Shown here: positions 12,192-34,187 of the stretch, in pieces
How the letters are laid out: the number at the start of each line of letters is the position of its first letter
Numbering within the stretch: the stretch's first letter is position 1
Assembly: GCA_019115335.1 (NCBI GenBank)
Contig: DXDT01000188.1
Span: 1-46,136 of the forward strand
Source: Candidatus Brachybacterium merdigallinarum
GTDB lineage: Bacteria > Actinomycetota > Actinomycetes > Actinomycetales > Dermabacteraceae
Direction: 5' to 3'
Length of the DNA stretch: 46,136 nt
The notes under the pieces: generated by a model
Database searches by the model: none
Seen by the model: only the letters and a program-made list of their open reading frames with translations
Told to the model about the DNA's origin: nothing
Program-made: the position numbers and the translations under genes

Positions 12192-13676
12192 ATGGTGCTG
12201 TGGCAGTGGATCCTGGATCACTGGGTCGTGGTGTGGACCTATGCCTACATCGCCCTGGACGTGGCGTTGCGCATCGCGGGGCTGATCCTGGTCCCGCGCA
12301 ATCGCCGCCCGGGCTCGGCGCTCGCCTGGCTGCTGGCGATCATGGTGCTTCCGCTGGTCGGATTCCCCCTATACCTGCTGCTGGGCAAGGCCGAGCTGCC
12401 GCGCAAGCGCCGCATCAAACAGGAGCGGATCAACGCCGTGATGCGGGCCCGCGCGGAGCGGATCCCCGACAGCGAGCTCGACCATGACGCGCCCAGCTGG
12501 CTGCAGTCCGCGGTGCGCCTGAACCGGGAGCTGGGCGCCTTCCCGCTGACCGGCAACAACTCCGCGGACCTCGAGATCGACTACGACTCCTCGATCGCGG
12601 CGATGGCGGCGGACATCCGCAGCGCCGAGCGGGATGTGCACGTGCTGTTCTACACGATGGTGCTCGACGAGGTCACCGAGGACTTCTTCGCCGCTCTCGC
12701 CGAGGTCGCCGACCGCGGGGTGCAGGTGCGGGTGCTGTACGACCACTGGGGCTCGCTCAGTCACGGCAAGGTGTACCGGGCGATGCGTCGCCTGCTGGAC
12801 GCTCACGGGATCGAGCACTACCCGATGATGCCGGTCAAGCCGTTCAGCGATGGCGCGTTCCAGCGCCCGGACCTGCGCAACCATCGCAAGCTGCTGGTCG
12901 TGGACGGCGAGATCGGCTGGATGGGCAGCCAGAACATGATCGCGCCCCACTACGACAAGCCCTCGAACATCCGGCGCGGCCTGCACTGGCAGGAGACCAT
13001 GATCCGCTTCCGCGGCCCGATTGTCTCGGAGATGAACCTGCTGTTCGCGATCGACTGGTACTACGAGTCCGATGAGCAGCTGGAGGAGGAGACCCTGGTG
13101 CGGCGGGCCTCGGACACCTCCGGCACGTACGAGTGCCAGCTGGTCCCCAGCGGTCCCGGTTTCGTGTTCGAGAACAATCTGCTGTTGTTCAACCAGCTTT
13201 TCTACTCCGCCGACCATCACATCCGCGCGGTCAGCCCGTACTTCGTGCCCGATGAGTCGATGCTCGCGGCGCTGATCACGGCGGCGCGGCGCGGCGTGGA
13301 GGTGGAGCTGTTCGTCTCCGAGATCGGGGACCAGTTCCTGGTCTTCCACGCCCAGCGCTCCTACTACACGGCGCTGCTGGAAGCCGGGGTGCGGATCTGG
13401 CTCTACCGGGCGCCGACGATCCTGCACGCCAAGCACGTGACGATCGACGAGTCCGTGACGGTGCTGGGATCCTCCAACATGGACATCCGCTCATTCCTGC
13501 TGGACATGGAGAGCTCGGTGATGGTGGGCGGCACCGACTTCATGGAGAAGATGCACGAGGTCGAGGAGGTCTACCGCTCCCGCAGCAGGGAACTGACCCT
13601 GGAGGAGTGGGAGCGGCGTCCCCGGGCCATGATGCTGCTGGACAACCTGTGCCGCCTCGCCTCGGCAGTGGTCTGA
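12192..13676 (+). CDS. cls: Cardiolipin synthase (phospholipase D superfamily)
   Basis: Condenses two phosphatidylglycerols, or phosphatidylglycerol with another lipid, to cardiolipin at the cytoplasmic membrane. 494 aa. Two N-terminal transmembrane segments (about 8-32 and 42-64, a typical PLDc_N domain with PRNRRPGSALAWLLAIMVLP) precede two HKD motifs: H231-K233-D238 in HRKLLVVDGEIGWMGSQN and H412-K414-D419 in HAKHVTIDESVTVLGSSNMD. Length and domain order are those of ClsA-type enzymes. GGGAGG lies eight nt before ATG 12192. A 15-bp hairpin sits in the short gap upstream. Confidence 0.95.
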   Translation: MVLWQWILDHWVVVWTYAYIALDVALRIAGLILVPRNRRPGSALAWLLAIMVLPLVGFPLYLLLGKAELPRKRRIKQERINAVMRARAERIPDSELDHDAPSWLQSAVRLNRELGAFPLTGNNSADLEIDYDSSIAAMAADIRSAERDVHVLFYTMVLDEVTEDFFAALAEVADRGVQVRVLYDHWGSLSHGKVYRAMRRLLDAHGIEHYPMMPVKPFSDGAFQRPDLRNHRKLLVVDGEIGWMGSQNMIAPHYDKPSNIRRGLHWQETMIRFRGPIVSEMNLLFAIDWYYESDEQLEEETLVRRASDTSGTYECQLVPSGPGFVFENNLLLFNQLFYSADHHIRAVSPYFVPDESMLAALITAARRGVEVELFVSEIGDQFLVFHAQRSYYTALLEAGVRIWLYRAPTILHAKHVTIDESVTVLGSSNMDIRSFLLDMESSVMVGGTDFMEKMHEVEEVYRSRSRELTLEEWERRPRAMMLLDNLCRLASAVV

Positions 13677-13734
13677 GAGGTCGCTGGCGCCCCGGGACGC
13701 GGCACCGGGCCCGCGCTCCGCCCAGCCGCCCCGC

Positions 13735-14577
13735 TCAGCCGGACAGGCCGGTGAGCGACTCGTAGGCGGAGGCGGTCGCCTCCTCGTGCTCGGTCACTCC
13801 GATCGCCGTGTCGGAGTGGAAGAAGCTGGGGCCCTCGGGGGTCGTCAGCACCACCACCACGATCTCGGTGGCGGAGAACGTCTCGAGGTTGTGCTGGCCG
13901 AAGTGCAGCTCCGCCCGGGTGCGATAGCCCGGCATCCCGGCGATGGTGACGGGCTCGGTGACCTTGTTCTCCACGGTCCGCTGGCTGGTGTCGCCCCAGA
14001 TGGAGCCGTCGGCGACGATGCAGTCCACCATCCGGATGGAGGCCGCTTCGTCGCCCGGGTACTCGACGCCGGGCTGCCATTCCACGGCCCCCACGGCGAC
14101 GAGGGAGACCCAGGTCCCCTCGATCACGCCGTAGGCGGTCTGGGTGTCCGCCATGAAGGCGCCGTAGGTCAGCTCGCTGCGCGAGGTGTACGCGGCCGGG
14201 GGGATGAACTCGAGGCCGCCGCCCCGCAGCCGGCTGGAGGGGTTGGAGGAGGTGTGGCCGCGGTCGGTGTCCCAGCAGCGCTCCTCGGTGACCGGGGCGG
14301 CCGAGGTGGTGGTCTCGCCCGAGCTCGGGGTGGCGGAGTCGGTGAGCTCCGGTCGGGGCGAGGCGGAGGACGACGCGGAGGTGGTCGCTCCCGCTGACGG
14401 GTCCCCGCCTCCGCCGGGACCGCGCAGCAGCAGGTAGCCGACGGTCGCCCCCACGATCAGCAGGAACACCAGGGCGAAGGCGATGCCCCCGATCAGCAGG
14501 GCACTGCCCCCGCCGCTGCCGCCGGGTCCGCCGGCCGGGTGCTGGGGTGGGGTGTGCTGGGGAGGTGGGGTGTGCAC
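13735..14577 (-). CDS. Single-pass membrane protein with extracytoplasmic domain, paralogue of the next gene
   Basis: No assigned function. 280 aa: residues 1-24 are Pro/Gly/Gln/His-rich; a transmembrane helix at about 26-51 (ALLIGGIAFALVFLLIVGAT) ends in Arg-Gly; a Ser/Thr/Pro/Ala-rich linker runs to about 95; and a globular domain of about 185 residues follows with two cysteines that may pair (C102 in EERCWD and C179 in MVDCIV). Type II topology is likely. The globular domain aligns by eye with that of the neighbouring gene (RGGGLEF vs RGGDLEY, GMPGY vs GYPGW, VLTTPEGPSFFHSD vs VVEGPDGPSALSSD, EHEEA vs DHEDH). GTG 14577 has AAGGAG five nt upstream. The gap of 42 nt to the upstream gene suggests an operon. 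Confidence 0.8.
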   Translation of the reverse strand: MHTPPPQHTPPQHPAGGPGGSGGGSALLIGGIAFALVFLLIVGATVGYLLLRGPGGGGDPSAGATTSASSSASPRPELTDSATPSSGETTTSAAPVTEERCWDTDRGHTSSNPSSRLRGGGLEFIPPAAYTSRSELTYGAFMADTQTAYGVIEGTWVSLVAVGAVEWQPGVEYPGDEAASIRMVDCIVADGSIWGDTSQRTVENKVTEPVTIAGMPGYRTRAELHFGQHNLETFSATEIVVVVLTTPEGPSFFHSDTAIGVTEHEEATASAYESLTGLSG

Positions 14578-27424: not shown

Positions 27425-28429
27425 TCAGTTCACAGGGTGGGGGTCTGCGCTGTCCAGGCCGGTTCCCTCCGTGTCCCGACCGTTCCCGTCGGGGCGGAAC
27501 CTGTCCCGTGCCGCTGCGGCCGCGCCCAGCAGCGCGGCGTGGGTCCCGGCGGCGGCGGGCAGCACCGGGGTCTCGGCGACCACGTCCATCGCATCGGTCG
27601 CGATCCCGGCGTCCAGCGCCCCGCGCCATATCGGAGCGGCGGAGGCGACGCCGCCGGTCAGTGCGACCACATCGACGTCCAGCAGATTCAGGACGCCGCC
27701 GATCACCCGCCCGGTGGCGTGCCCGGCGAGCCGGTAGGCCTCGAGCGCGGCGCGATCGCCCTGCTCGGCGAGGCGGGCCAGATCGTGCCCGGTCCCGACG
27801 TCGCGGGCACCGAGCCGCTCGGCGAGGCGCACGATGCCGGGGCCGGCGGCGAGCCCCTCGAGGTGCCCGGTGCGGCCGCAGGGGCAGGGGACCCCCTCGG
27901 CCTCCGGGACGCTGAGGTGCCCGATGTGCCCGGCGGCTCCGCGGACCCCGGCGACAGGGGTGCCGTCGCGCACGATGCAGCCACCGATGCCGGTGCCCAC
28001 CGCGACCAGCAGCAGGGAGTCGTGCCCGGCGCCGACCCCGAAGCGATCCTCCCCGAGTCCGTGGGCGTGGACGTCGTTCAGCACGGTGACCGGTACCGCG
28101 AAGTGCTCCTGGAACGGATGGGCCACATCGGTCCCCGCCCAGCCCGGCAGGGAGTCGGTGGCATGGGTCACCTGGCTGGTGCCGGGAGCGATCACCCCGG
28201 CCGAGGCGATCCCGATCCCGGTGACCGCAGGGGACCCGGCGGGGGAGGAGGCCAGCACCGCCTGGGCGCAGTCCATCGCCGCCGCGATCACCGCGGAGGG
28301 GCCCTCCGGCGCGGGGGTGGGGATGGTGACCACCCGTTCGATCACCGGCCGGTCCCCGCCCAGGCGCACCCGGGCACCGGCGATCGTGGTGCCGCCGATG
28401 TCCAGGGCCAGGAGGTGCTGCTCAGGCAT
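27425..28429 (-). CDS. nanK: ROK family kinase, probable N-acetylmannosamine kinase
   Basis: Cytosolic sugar kinase, 334 aa. ATP phosphate motif LALDIGGTTIAGARV at the N-terminus, VTGIGIASAGVI, the sugar-binding VTVLNDVHAHGLGE with the catalytic Asp, LLVAVGTGIGGCIV, and the ROK zinc site GHIGHLSV followed by CPCGRTGHLEGLA, where the usual third Cys (CGxxGC) is His. Pairing with nanE points to N-acetylmannosamine as substrate, although ROK specificity cannot be read from sequence; glucokinase is the alternative. The ATG at 28429 (or GTG one codon upstream) lies inside the end of msrA, overlapping it by 8-11 nt, so it is translated from the same mRNA. Confidence 0.85.
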   Translation of the reverse strand: MPEQHLLALDIGGTTIAGARVRLGGDRPVIERVVTIPTPAPEGPSAVIAAAMDCAQAVLASSPAGSPAVTGIGIASAGVIAPGTSQVTHATDSLPGWAGTDVAHPFQEHFAVPVTVLNDVHAHGLGEDRFGVGAGHDSLLLVAVGTGIGGCIVRDGTPVAGVRGAAGHIGHLSVPEAEGVPCPCGRTGHLEGLAAGPGIVRLAERLGARDVGTGHDLARLAEQGDRAALEAYRLAGHATGRVIGGVLNLLDVDVVALTGGVASAAPIWRGALDAGIATDAMDVVAETPVLPAAAGTHAALLGAAAAARDRFRPDGNGRDTEGTGLDSADPHPVN

Positions 28430-29192
28430 CACTTCTGCCCGGCAGTCCGGTCTGCTCGAGCACGGATTCCTGGCTGGGCAGCTGATCCTGGGGCTGCGGT
28501 TCGAGCGAGCAGGCCACGCCGTTGAAGCCGTGGTTGCAGTAGCCGCCGGGATTCTTGGCGAGGTACTGCTGGTGCTCGGGCTCCGCGGTGTAGTACACGC
28601 CGTTGCCGGCTTCGGCCAGGGGCTTCAGCTCGGTGGAGATCTGACCGCGTCCCGCCTGGTCCAGCGCCTGCTGGTAGCGCTCGGCGGAGTCGAGCACGAT
28701 CTCGCCCTGCTCCGCGGTGGTCCAGTAGACGGCGCTGCGGTACTCGGTGCCCACGTCATTGCCCTGCCGCATCGCGGTGGTGGGATCGTGCTGCTCCCAG
28801 AACTGGGTGAGCAGTGCCCGCAGGGTCGTCACGCCTCCGTGGTAGATCACGCGCACTGCCTCGGCGTGCCCGGTCCGTGCGGAGAAGACCTCCTCGTAGG
28901 TGGGGTGCGGGGTGTACCCGCCCGCGTACCCGCTGGAGGTGGTGTGCACGCCCGGGACCTTCCAGGCGATCCGCTCGATGCCCCAGAAACAGCCCCCCGC
29001 CAGGATGATCTCCTCAGCACCCGCCGGCCACGGAGCGGGGTCGAGCGGGGCGTCGGGGCCGAGCATGTCGGTGCCCAGGACCACGTGCTCGCGCGCCGGA
29101 CGGTACGGGTAGCGGTCGCGCCCGGGGAGGGCGTCCTCCGGCGCGACCATGTCCTTCTTGTGCGCGTACAGGAGATCCATCATCTGCCACAT
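28422..29192 (-). CDS. msrA: Peptide methionine sulfoxide reductase MsrA
   Basis: Reduces methionine-S-sulfoxide in proteins and free methionine. 256 aa; the catalytic motif GGCFWG has the active Cys at C68, followed by YAGGYTPHPTYEEVFSARTGHAEAVRV, LTQFWEQHDPTTAMRQGNDVGTEYRSAVY and a C-terminal YCNHGFNG with a probable resolving Cys. The N-terminal 50 residues (DRYPYRPAREHVVLGTD) are an extension also seen in actinobacterial members. ATG 29192 lies six nt after TACCGT, consistent with leaderless translation. First gene of an msrA-nanK-nanE transcription unit. No msrB is nearby. Confidence 0.95.
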   Translation of the reverse strand: MWQMMDLLYAHKKDMVAPEDALPGRDRYPYRPAREHVVLGTDMLGPDAPLDPAPWPAGAEEIILAGGCFWGIERIAWKVPGVHTTSSGYAGGYTPHPTYEEVFSARTGHAEAVRVIYHGGVTTLRALLTQFWEQHDPTTAMRQGNDVGTEYRSAVYWTTAEQGEIVLDSAERYQQALDQAGRGQISTELKPLAEAGNGVYYTAEPEHQQYLAKNPGGYCNHGFNGVACSLEPQPQDQLPSQESVLEQTGLPGRSDA

Positions 29193-29779
29193 GCCCCCAC
29201 GGTACGCCGGGGAGGGTCACCTCGCCGTGGTCGCCATCACCTGAGGTCTCGCCGACGACGCTCGCGGAGGGAGGGGAGGTTTCTGTGCCCGCGGGACGAA
29301 ATAGCGAAAGAAGGGGCGCTTTCGAGAATATCCCTGCGATGCGACATTCGAAGATTCCGCTGTGGAGCCATGGTGTGGCGGAGTGGCGAGCTCGGCATTT
29401 CGACCTTGCGAGCTTCCGGAATGCCGTGATTCCGCAGGTGGCCCTCGCGGCCTGGGGCGGCGAGATGCCTGCCCCGGTGACTGCCCGCTGGCTGTGGGTG
29501 CCAGATGGCCTGGGGCTGCATGGTGGCCTGCGGATGCCTGGTGTGCTGCGAGCGCCAGATGCGGCGTCAGTGCCCGGTGCGATGTCGGTGCGAGGAGCGC
29601 TTTCGGCGTCAGAAGAGTCATCCATCGTTCCTCCTCAATGGATGGTCTTCCGCATTATTGACGAATTTCTGAATATCCCTTGTGGTGGCCGAATGGGTGC
29701 GGAAGAATGGGGTGAGTGGTCGGTGCAAGGATTCGTTCACGCCGTGATGGATATTCGGAGAGATCGAGGGGGTGAGGTC
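29193..29779. other. 587-bp stretch without a secure gene, upstream of the DUF222 gene
   Basis: Less GC-biased than the rest of the window (for example around 29290-29345 and 29645-29685). On the plus strand an open frame covers it but its composition is not coding-like. On the minus strand ATG 29625 has a perfect AGGAGG four nt upstream, and AATAAT at 29654-29659 could be a -10 box; the resulting frame (MDDSSDAESAPRTDIAPGTD and on) is Ala/Pro/Arg-rich and stays open until 29014, running antisense-in-frame into msrA, so I do not call it a gene. Words are repeated: GCGCTTTCG at 29316 and 29597, GAATATCCCT at 29326 and 29671. It may be the decayed flank of a 13E12-type element. Confidence 0.4.
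29199..29204 (-). promoter_or_regulatory. Putative leaderless -10 box, msrA
   Basis: TACCGT on the minus strand ends six nt before ATG 29192. Confidence 0.5.
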
Positions 29780-31280
29780 ATGAACGTCGGGATGCAGCAG
29801 TTGATGCAGGAGATGCAAATCATGGCGCACGCCGTTTCGGAGCGGGGGGGCTCTCGAGGCGGCAGATGACGCCGCCCTGATCGACCTCATCGCCCTCACC
29901 GAGTCGCTCAAGGGCACCCTCGCCGCGCTGCAGGCCGGTGCCGAGAAGGCGTTCCGGGACTCCCATCTCCGCCGACAGCGCGAGGCCGGAGTTCCGCGCG
30001 AGCATCTCGGGCGGGGCATTGCGGACCAGGTCGGTCTGGCTCGGCGGATCAGCCCCAAGCAGGCGGGTGATCAGATGGCCCTGCGCAGAGTGCTGCTGGA
30101 GAGCCTGCCGCGCACCACCGAGCTGCTCGCCCGCGGTGAGATCAGCGAGTGGACCGCGCACGAGGTCGCCAAGAACGTGCTCGTGCTCGATGACGAGGAC
30201 CGCGCACTCGTCGACGCCGGGCTCGCCGATCAGCTGCCGTCGATGAGCGCGACCCGAGCCGGGCGCACCGCGAGGGCACACGCCCAGGAGCTGGACCCGG
30301 CGGCAGCGGTCAAACGGGCCCGCAAGAAGATCTCCGAGCGCAACGTTTCCCTGCGACCGGCACCGGATGGAATGGCCATCCTCAGCGCTCTCCTCCCGCA
30401 GAAGGAAGGCGTCGCCGCCTACGCGGCGCTGCACCGCGAAGCGCGTTCCCGGAAGAGCCAGGGCGATCCGCGCCGCAAGGGTCAGATCATGGCCGACACC
30501 CTCGTCGAACGCGCCACTGGAGCGGCCACCGTCGATGACATCCCCGTCGAGATCCAGCTGCTCATGACGGACAAGGCCCTGCTGGACGGGGGAGAGGAGA
30601 CCGCATGGCTGAACGACCACCCGGTGCCCGCCGCTCTCGCTCGTGACATCGCACTGGGAGTCCGTGGCGCGAACATCGAGGGCAGCTCTACCGGGTCCGA
30701 GGAACAGCTCTCGGCACCGGAACTCTCCGAGGCACGGCGCTGGATCAGGCGCCTGTACAGCGATTCCCCCAGCGCCGAGTTCGCCGCCGTCGACTCCCGC
30801 CGCAGGCTCTTCACCGGGAACGTGCGACGCTTCATCCTGCTGCGCGACCAGCGCTGCCGCACACCGTGGTGCGATGCCCCGATCCGGGACATCGACCACG
30901 CCCATCGCAGCGCCGACGGCGGACTCACCACCGTCGACAACGGCGTCGGGCACTGCCAGCAGTTCAACCTCGCCCGCGAGACACCCGGCTGGGATTCACA
31001 GATCGTTCCGGCCGACGGGGCCGAGCCGAGCACTCTGCTCATCACCACCCCGACCGGCCACACCTACCGCTCACCGGCCCCGCGCCTGCGACCAGAACGA
31101 AGAACCCCCTCCGCCCCGACCGCCACGGCCCCGCCGGGCCTCAAGCCACCGGGCCCCGACCCAGCAGCTCCCGAACCACCGGAACGAGAACTCATGCTCC
31201 GCCGGCCGACCATCGAGCGAGGGGCCCAGCCGCTCAGACCAGCACGGGCAGCATCGGCGCCCCGCGCGGCCAGCGGCTAG
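29780..31280 (+). pseudogene. DUF222/HNH endonuclease-domain protein (13E12 family), frame broken at a G7 tract
   Basis: ATG 29780 (GAGGGGG seven nt upstream) opens MNVGMQQLMQEMQIMAHAVSER and runs into seven G at 29844-29850, after which the frame stops at 29869. The family sequence continues in the +1 frame: ALEAADDAALIDLIALTESLKGTLAALQ, AFRDSHLRRQREAGVPREHLGRG, then the DUF222 core, and ends with the HNH domain RFILLRDQRCRTPWC, IDHAHRSADGGLTTVDNG, HCQQFNLARETPGW. With six G instead of seven, one continuous 499-codon frame results and SERGALEAADD reads smoothly. HNH residues are intact. The Pro-rich tail (from about 31090) is normal. Alternatives to decay are phase variation, slippage or a sequencing error. 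Without the shift, translation could start at ATG 30075 and lose the N-terminal DUF222 part. Confidence 0.8.
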
Positions 31281-31321: not shown

Positions 31322-31879
31322 TCACTCCTTCTTGCGAGGCAGCAGCACGATCAGCAGCACTATCACCGCCAGCACCCCGACCACGGTGACCGCCGGCGCC
31401 AGATGGACCCCTGACAGGGCGAGCACGAGCCCGCCCGCTATGAGACTCCCGGCGAGCACCACGATCAGGACCACTCCCGCCGACCCCCACAGGGAGGAGA
31501 GGAACACCCCGTGCGCGGGACCGAGCGCCGCCCACGACCACGCCATGTGCGCGACCAGCATCAGCAGGCCCACCGCACCGACCCGCATCAGCGAGACCTC
31601 CCCCTGCCCGAGGAAGCACAGCACGATCAGCCCCATCGCCGCCAGGCCCGCCGCAGAATCCGGCAGGAACAGCTGGGCCAGCAGCAGCACGGGCACCAGC
31701 AGCAGCGCCACCGCGGAGAACACCCCCGCGGTCAGCCAGCCCCCAGGGGTCGCGAGGATCAGCGCCGACACCATCGTCCCCGCCCCCAGCAGGCGCAGCA
31801 GCCACTGCGCCCCGCTGATCGTGCGCAGCTCCAGGAGCTTCTCCGCCGCGGCGTCGACATACCGGGTCAGTCCGAGCAT
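31322..31879 (-). CDS. Small polytopic membrane protein at the end of the MoxR-DUF58 cluster
   Basis: 185 aa. After a short amphipathic start (MLGLTRYVDAAAEKLLELRT) there are about five to six hydrophobic segments between residues 25 and 180, ending in a basic RKKE tail. No enzymatic motif; I do not recognise a family. The ATG at 31879 shares its A with the TGA of the DUF58 gene (TGATG) and uses GGAGGAGG inside that gene, so translation is coupled to DUF58. Last gene of the cluster and convergent with the DUF222 pseudogene 41 nt away. Confidence 0.8.
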   Translation of the reverse strand: MLGLTRYVDAAAEKLLELRTISGAQWLLRLLGAGTMVSALILATPGGWLTAGVFSAVALLLVPVLLLAQLFLPDSAAGLAAMGLIVLCFLGQGEVSLMRVGAVGLLMLVAHMAWSWAALGPAHGVFLSSLWGSAGVVLIVVLAGSLIAGGLVLALSGVHLAPAVTVVGVLAVIVLLIVLLPRKKE

Positions 31880-33180
31880 CAGCCCCTCCTCCTGCGCGGT
31901 GCCGAACGCGCCACCGACAGCGACAGCAGCACCGGCGCGAGCGAGGCCGGCCCCTCCCACGCCGTCACCGGCACCCCCTGCTCGGTCAGCTCCTGCACCG
32001 TCTCCTCCCGCAGCATCCGCCGCAGCGCCCACGCCTCCGGCCAGAACCGATCCGGACCGGAGCCGCCGTCGCGCACCGGCGAGCCACGCAGCATCGAGAG
32101 ATCCCCGATGCTCGGCGGCAGCGTGTCCACCACGATCACATCGGCCCCCTGCACGCGCAGCAGTCCGATCTGCTCGATCGCCAGCTCGCTGAGCAGAGGC
32201 GAGCACACCACCACCAGCGTGCCCGGCCGGACCGTGCGCAGCGTGCGCGCCGGCCGCAGCTGCCCGTCGGCCCGTCGTGCCCGGGACAGCACCTCGGTGA
32301 GCACCCGCAGCTGACGGGGCCCGGTCCCGGCGCGCACCGGACCGATCAGCGAGCCCAGATCGAACACCGCCACCCGGTCCCCGGCGATCAGATAGTGCCG
32401 AGCGATCGCCGCGGTGGCCCGGATCGTCATGTCCAGACTGCTGGGGGCGTCCTCCGCTGCCCACGGCGCCGGCGGCACATCGGTGAGCGTGTCGGTCACC
32501 AGCAGCACATCCGTGTCCTGCTCGGTGAACGTCGCATTCGTGTGCAGCGTCCCGGTACGGCTGGTCACGCGCCAGTTGATCCGATGCAGCCGGTCCCCGG
32601 GACGGAACTCCCGCACCTCCGACAGCGCCGTGCCCTCACCCCGCCGGCGCGAGAGATGCATCCCGCTGACCCCGATCGGCGTCGGCACCTCCGTCGGGGC
32701 GTCCAGCACCGGGGCCGACGGCACCACCTGCACCGTCACCGGCTCCAGACGGTGCTGCCTGCGGTGCGCACCGAGCGGATCGGCGACCACCGTGTGCACC
32801 GGACCGACCTTCACCATCCCCCAGCGCGTCGCGGTCACCCGCAGCGGGACCTCGTGCCGCGCCGTCGCGGAGCCGAAACGGGGGAACAGGTCGGCGTGCG
32901 CGGTCAGCGGCACGCTCACGCTCAGCAGCAGGTCCGGCGAGGCGGTGACGGTGATCGCGGTGCTCCCGCCCTCCTCGATCGCCCGCACGCCGCGCCGGAT
33001 CCGCGGACTGTCCGGACGGGTCGCGTCGGCGTGCAGCAGCCGCCAGCAGGCGGCCACCAGGGCCCACACGAGCAGCGGCGCGCCCAGCAGCATCAGCTCG
33101 GTCCGCCCCACCAGAACGGCGAGCAGCACGGTGCCGACACCGATGCTCACGGCGCGGACCAGTGCGGGAGTGGGACTCAC
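31879..33180 (-). CDS. DUF58 domain-containing membrane protein
   Basis: 433 aa. Two hydrophobic N-terminal segments (about 7-25 and 28-46) anchor a large soluble part. The DUF58 signature is VSGMHLSRRRGEGTALSEVREFRPGDRLHRINWRVTSRTGTLHTNAT (about 192-238, given in pieces), followed by a von Willebrand-like fold with VLLVTDT and IVVDTLP. DUF58 proteins are regularly encoded beside MoxR ATPases and are thought to be their clients or partners. The GTG at 33180 overlaps the MoxR stop (GTGA) and the end overlaps the next start, so the three genes are co-translated. Confidence 0.9.
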   Translation of the reverse strand: MSPTPALVRAVSIGVGTVLLAVLVGRTELMLLGAPLLVWALVAACWRLLHADATRPDSPRIRRGVRAIEEGGSTAITVTASPDLLLSVSVPLTAHADLFPRFGSATARHEVPLRVTATRWGMVKVGPVHTVVADPLGAHRRQHRLEPVTVQVVPSAPVLDAPTEVPTPIGVSGMHLSRRRGEGTALSEVREFRPGDRLHRINWRVTSRTGTLHTNATFTEQDTDVLLVTDTLTDVPPAPWAAEDAPSSLDMTIRATAAIARHYLIAGDRVAVFDLGSLIGPVRAGTGPRQLRVLTEVLSRARRADGQLRPARTLRTVRPGTLVVVCSPLLSELAIEQIGLLRVQGADVIVVDTLPPSIGDLSMLRGSPVRDGGSGPDRFWPEAWALRRMLREETVQELTEQGVPVTAWEGPASLAPVLLSLSVARSAPRRRRG

Positions 33181-34187
33181 GGGGCGGGTCGTGCGCTCGC
33201 CGCCGGGACCGGGACCTGGCCGAGCGCCCCCTCGACCACTCCGGCACCGGTCGCGTTCTGCAGCCACAGCTCGGGCTTGACCGTCACTCGGTGGTCCAGC
33301 ACCGGGTGAGCCAGCTCCTTGATGTCCTCCGGCACCACGAACCCGCGCCCCCGGATCACGGCCAGCGCACGGGCGCACAGGATCAGGGCGAGGGTGCCGC
33401 GCGGCGAGGCCCCCACCAGGGCCGACGAATGCACCCGGGTCGCCGCGACCAGCTCCACCGCGTAATGACCGATCGCCTCCTCCACGTGCACGGACTCCAC
33501 CGTCCGCTGCGCGGCGAGCAGGCCCTCCCCGTCCAGGATCTGCGGCACCGTGACTTCCTCGCGGGCACGGTCCAGGCGCCTGGCCACCACCTCCCACTCC
33601 TGCACGGGGCTCGGGTATCCGAAGGAGAGCCGCAGCAGGAAGCGATCGAGCTGCGCCTCCGGCAGCGGGTAGGTGCCCTCGTGCTCGATCGGGTTCGCGG
33701 TCGCCAGCACATGGAACGGCTGCGGCAGCGCGCGGGTGGTGCCCTCGACCGAGACCTGCCGCTCCTGCATCGCCTCCAGCAGGGCGGACTGCGTCTTGGG
33801 CGGGGTGCGGTTGATCTCGTCTGCCAGCAGCAGCCCCGTGAACACCGGGCCGGGGCGGAACACGAACTCGCCGGTGCGCTGGTCGAACACCTCCGCCCCG
33901 GTGAGGTCCGACGGCAGGAGATCAGGCGTGAACTGGGCACGGGTGAACGGCAGCCCGAGCGCCTGCGCGAAGGAGCGGGCAGCGAGGGTCTTGCCGAGGC
34001 CGGGCAGATCCTCGAGCAGCACGTGCCCGCCGGCCAGGATGCCGGCCAGGACCAGCTCCAGCTCCGGGCGCTTGCCGACCACCGCCGTCTCGACGGCGTC
34101 GAGCACCTGGCCGGTCGCCTCGGTCGCCTCGGACAGGGGCAGCGCGTGGTGGGGGGATGCGGTGGGGGAGACCGTGTGCTGGGGCAT
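33177..34187 (-). CDS. MoxR-type AAA+ ATPase
   Basis: Chaperone-like ATPase, 336 aa. Walker A is LPGLGKT at 61-67 (G-L-G-K-T), Walker B LLLADEINRTPPKTQSALLEAMQE with D123-E124, sensor-1 region HVLATANPIEHEGTYPLPEAQLDRF, and the C-terminal lid with ASPRGTLALILCARALAVIRGR. This is the typical bacterial MoxR subfamily (AAA_3 plus lid). It probably acts on the adjacent DUF58 protein. The ATG at 34187 has TAGTGT six nt upstream, so although it follows the small membrane protein gene by 41 nt, it seems to have its own leaderless promoter. Confidence 0.95.
   Translation of the reverse strand: MPQHTVSPTASPHHALPLSEATEATGQVLDAVETAVVGKRPELELVLAGILAGGHVLLEDLPGLGKTLAARSFAQALGLPFTRAQFTPDLLPSDLTGAEVFDQRTGEFVFRPGPVFTGLLLADEINRTPPKTQSALLEAMQERQVSVEGTTRALPQPFHVLATANPIEHEGTYPLPEAQLDRFLLRLSFGYPSPVQEWEVVARRLDRAREEVTVPQILDGEGLLAAQRTVESVHVEEAIGHYAVELVAATRVHSSALVGASPRGTLALILCARALAVIRGRGFVVPEDIKELAHPVLDHRVTVKPELWLQNATGAGVVEGALGQVPVPAASARPAP

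Follow-up and report, generated by a model that had tools for sequence, protein, structure and literature searches.

A DUF222-HNH gene beside msrA

The window analyzed here, a stretch of 46,136 nucleotides, corresponds to contig 111 in the draft assembly of an environmental genome whose nearest named relatives are Brachybacterium. This assembly comprises 307 contigs with a total of 3.05 Mb, at a completeness of 81 % and a contamination of 4.5 %. The window harbors a gene for a DUF222-HNH protein that lies next to a divergent msrA and whose reading frame is broken shortly after its start (Table 1). The species is represented by one assembly in our comparisons, and the nearest orthologues come from other species.

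Table 1. Features of the broken DUF222-HNH gene and its surroundings (positions in the window).
Feature	Position	Strand	Remarks
msrA	28422..29192	-	divergent neighbor, conserved in seven other Brachybacterium genomes
Purine-rich Shine-Dalgarno-like stretch	29766..29777	+	GAGGGGGTGAGG, upstream of ATG 29780
N-terminal frame, ATG to TGA	29780..29869	+	29 codons; several in-frame ATGs, all of which run into G7
DUF222-HNH family frame	29805..31280	+	stop-free; no ATG, GTG, or TTG before 30075
G7 homopolymer	29844..29850	+	sole run of at least four bases in the 62-bp interval where the frames can join
First ATG of the family frame	30075..31280	+	401 aa; product would miss the first 98 residues
HNH-type motif	30855..30968	+	CRTPWC...DIDH...VDN...GHCQQFN; H-N-N, conserved in orthologues

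The gene is found close to msrA in seven other Brachybacterium genomes, six of which also hold a protein of the downstream operon nearby, namely the product of 31879-33597 or that of 33177-34187, a MoxR-type ATPase. As both msrA and these operon neighbors are shared across genomes of the genus, the gene is conserved in position rather than newly arrived. A mobile or viral origin was considered and rejected, given that no viral relative was found, that the sole plasmid match was weak, and that the locus is syntenic within the genus. A 41-bp similarity shared by 30194-30234 with most of the genomes in the genus was likewise discarded; in the three loci examined it belongs to another conserved long frame, and it probably reflects chance at the codon level. 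PADLOC returned no match to a known defense system, and no solved structure for the protein was retrieved by sequence.

DUF222-HNH proteins are numerous across Actinobacteria and have no known function. Eight DUF222 matches are present in the window genome and between four and 15 in its relatives. In the genome search, the window gene scored 36.3 bits against a curated DUF222 cut-off of 24.4; taken by itself, the window protein had no hit in a filtered hmmscan, and two of the three orthologues scanned matched PF02720 (39-40.5 bits). With the Pfam HNH model, two orthologues scored 11-13 bits, which is under the cut-off, and the window protein was not hit. According to the initial annotation, the rest of the gene is intact including its HNH residues. 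This holds for the downstream frame, but the third residue of the motif is asparagine (CQQFN), so that the motif reads H-N-N. The orthologues (loci L010 and L020-L025) conserve this H-N-N motif (CQxFN), in which asparagine stands where a histidine usually ends the motif, and together with the window gene they belong to one DUF222 subfamily. With PF02720 proteins such as the mycobacterial REP13E12/13E12 family, the window protein shares the DUF222 domain, a putative C-terminal HNH-type motif, and multicopy occurrence. Unlike them, its subfamily carries asparagine at the third catalytic position, the gene has a conserved position beside msrA, and the window copy is frame-broken. For M. tuberculosis, REP13E12 copies have been listed as adjacent gene pairs (e.g., Rv0094c/Rv0095c) and described as gene conversion hotspots (PMC13061034). 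Our literature search for frameshifts in 13E12/DUF222 genes found nothing.

Joining of the two frames at the G7 run

Translation from ATG 29780 gives MNVGMQQLMQEMQIMAHAVSERGGSRGGR and terminates at TGA 29867-29869, and the nearest stop upstream of the family frame is TGA 29802-29804; these two stops confine the crossover between the frames to 29805-29866. A one-base joining of both frames results in a protein of exactly 499 aa. The proposal of the initial annotation that the frames meet at the G7 run to give 499 codons is thus borne out, as there is a single candidate homopolymer in the permitted interval and the joined protein is collinear with its orthologues, the closest of which are ~57-61 % identical and align gap-free across the junction. 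That orthologues in five Brachybacterium species share the start codon and show no gap at this point takes the joining beyond chance. In this DUF222-HNH gene, the length of the homopolymer at the junction sets the reading frame.

The start codon is preceded, 7 nt upstream, by a Shine-Dalgarno-like GAGGGGG run. In five genomes (G011, G013, G023, G027, and G028), the orthologues begin at the identical position, 44 codons before the reference residue, and are likewise preceded by purine-rich ribosome sites, and those of G015 and G010 begin 2-4 codons later than the window gene. The N-terminal 22 residues of the joined protein have weak similarity to the orthologues, and the assignment of ATG 29780 as start consequently rests on its position and ribosome site. 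Similarity to the proteins of relatives sets in near 29860, well before the first possible start of the family frame. A shorter protein that is initiated at the internal ATG and retains the nuclease-like domain might be envisaged, as GGGTGATC is situated directly upstream of this in-frame codon. The residues lost would, however, include the conserved stretch RGIADQVGLARRISPKQAG found in the orthologues, and we regard such a product as very improbable.

The initial annotation had also suggested comparing the tract length in orthologues. This was done, and a G run of five or more bases at the junction site was absent from every close orthologue examined. The same result bears on a possible read-through of the tract, by which +1 ribosomal slippage on GGG-G or transcriptional slippage would furnish a little full-length protein. 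The shift needed is indeed +1, a glycine tRNA could conceivably re-pair on GGGG, and the downstream frame looks conserved, but orthologues possess neither tract nor break at the junction, and we regard read-through as very improbable.

Compared to its orthologues, the window gene has dN values of ~0.34-0.47 and dS values of ~0.8-1.5, which fall near the values that separate other subfamily members from one another. Its protein was not flagged for a long terminal branch, and the remaining 470-odd codons are free of stops. Taken together, these observations suggest a recent break rather than a long-decayed pseudogene.

Homopolymers, indel repair, and other broken copies

G7 runs are strongly depleted in this genome. 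By composition, 35 G7 runs would be expected (shuffled windows) versus one observed in the window, and the 3.05 Mb assembly as a whole contains 29 distinct runs of seven or more bases. We inspected 19 of these, of which 14 are located outside called coding sequence, three are coding with the frame kept, and two sit at breaks. Both break-associated runs belong to DUF222 genes, namely the window G7 and a C7 on contig C60. The DUF222 genes of the window genome therefore carry two of the 29 runs against ~0.1 expected (DUF222 sequence makes up about 12 kb of the 3.05 Mb), an excess that is small and unexplained. No such excess is evident in relatives, with one G/C run of at least seven bases in 80 kb (60 DUF222 genes) as compared to eight in 280 kb of flanking sequence, and 51 further, partly overlapping DUF222 loci of relatives were devoid of such runs.

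The DUF222-HNH gene on contig C60 (~13188-14400, L111) has two breaks. The first, near 13786-13814, is not associated with a homopolymer, and the second coincides with the C7 run (14201-14207) inside the HNH region. Because the former break has no tract, this gene resembles plain decay. Another broken copy was encountered in Brachybacterium sp. EE-P12, where the syntenic orthologue beside msrA is interrupted near query residues 295-314 (L024/L045; L092 ~17649), in the linker ahead of the nuclease-like domain and without a homopolymer of five or more bases. This break is a loss independent of that in the window. Loss of one DUF222 copy seems to be tolerated, as expected for genomes with so many copies, and the broken state of both the EE-P12 orthologue and the C60 gene suggests that the window gene, too, is dispensable.

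An error of sequencing or assembly, in which case the true tract length differs and the gene is intact, would be in keeping with the fragmentation, incompleteness, and contamination of the draft as well as with orthologues that are unbroken at the junction and a window gene that looks conserved. On the other hand, the three other coding G/C7 runs keep their frame, and a codon-usage frame scan of 277 kb of the assembly revealed no further switch of frame that lacked an explanation. Applied to 400 kb from relatives, the same scan detected one, which is the EE-P12 break. The scan overlooks short or atypical segments and flagged neither the C60 nor the window break, and hence bounds the error rate of the assembly only roughly. 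All in all, we judge an error to be rather unlikely, albeit well within consideration.

With respect to the stability of such tracts, MutS_V had no match in the 81 % complete assembly and NucS is present. NucS without MutS is the pattern expected for an actinobacterium. In M. smegmatis, indels of 1-2 bases are not repaired by NucS (PMC11551767). A hypervariable GGGGGGG run in glpK of M. tuberculosis frequently undergoes one-base expansion, which has been found in many isolates (PMC6667613), and G/C runs of more than six bases are variable and disrupt reading frames in P. acnes (PMC4746626). The glpK case (PMC6667613) is similar to ours in that an actinobacterial gene bears G7 in its 5' part and a one-base change leads to loss of function; it differs in that G7 is the in-frame state there and varies across many isolates, whereas the G7 of the window gene is out of frame and known from one assembly. 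The frame-disrupting tracts of Propionibacterium acnes, again in an actinobacterium, were documented as variable among 90 genomes (PMC4746626), in contrast to the single assembly at hand. Given these precedents and the NucS result, slippage from six to seven Gs is a sufficient cause of the break, and slippage back is possible.

Origin and meaning of the G7 allele

The initial annotation had likened the break to a phase-variable on/off switch and named a recent mutation or a sequencing error as the simpler explanations. The latter two have turned out to be better supported, since the tract is absent in orthologues and the DUF222 genes of relatives are not enriched in such runs. A selected switch of this nuclease-like gene via its G tract could draw on the position of the tract just past the start codon of an otherwise intact gene, on a repair background in which NucS but not MutS was found, on the glpK precedent, and on the second DUF222 gene of the window genome with a tract at a break. 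Against it stand, in addition to the comparison with relatives, the tract-free second break on contig C60 and the modest length of the tract. Seven Gs are at the short end of the range for contingency loci, and the inspected tracts of eight to nine bases in the window genome are all located outside called coding sequence. We consider such a switch improbable, and nothing points to selection keeping the G7 allele for this purpose. The broader notion that some Brachybacterium DUF222-HNH genes are reversibly silenced by slippage at G/C runs, so that populations would mix cells with and without each protein, likewise appears quite improbable to us. If true, a reversible OFF state would hint that the activity of DUF222-HNH proteins carries a cost or is of use only on occasion.

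Instead, the break probably arose when a G6 run recently slipped to G7 in a DUF222-HNH(N) gene that is inherited vertically, seems dispensable, and occupies the conserved msrA locus. In such a scenario, a run of about six Gs would have gained one base by slipped-strand mispairing during replication. Translation from ATG 29780 would then end after 29 codons, and the full-length protein would presumably not be produced, except perhaps in traces via slippage. In bacteria that lack indel repair, slippage at short G runs continues, and the allele may therefore revert occasionally; by analogy with the tracts discussed above, such reversibility is plausible as an incidental property. As it stands, this is an ordinary frameshift allele that matters only if the length of its tract varies in cultures.

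Two minor observations concern the remaining DUF222 genes. A G9 run on contig C87 (7696-7704, L115) of the window genome was considered as a tract inside another DUF222 gene and rejected, as it sits in non-coding sequence several hundred bases ahead of that gene and has no obvious connection with it. Among the 60 DUF222 genes of relatives, 46 retain an in-frame HNH pattern. The other 14 are mostly long frames, with three short-framed exceptions (L157, L201, and L204), and most of them probably carry a variant motif.
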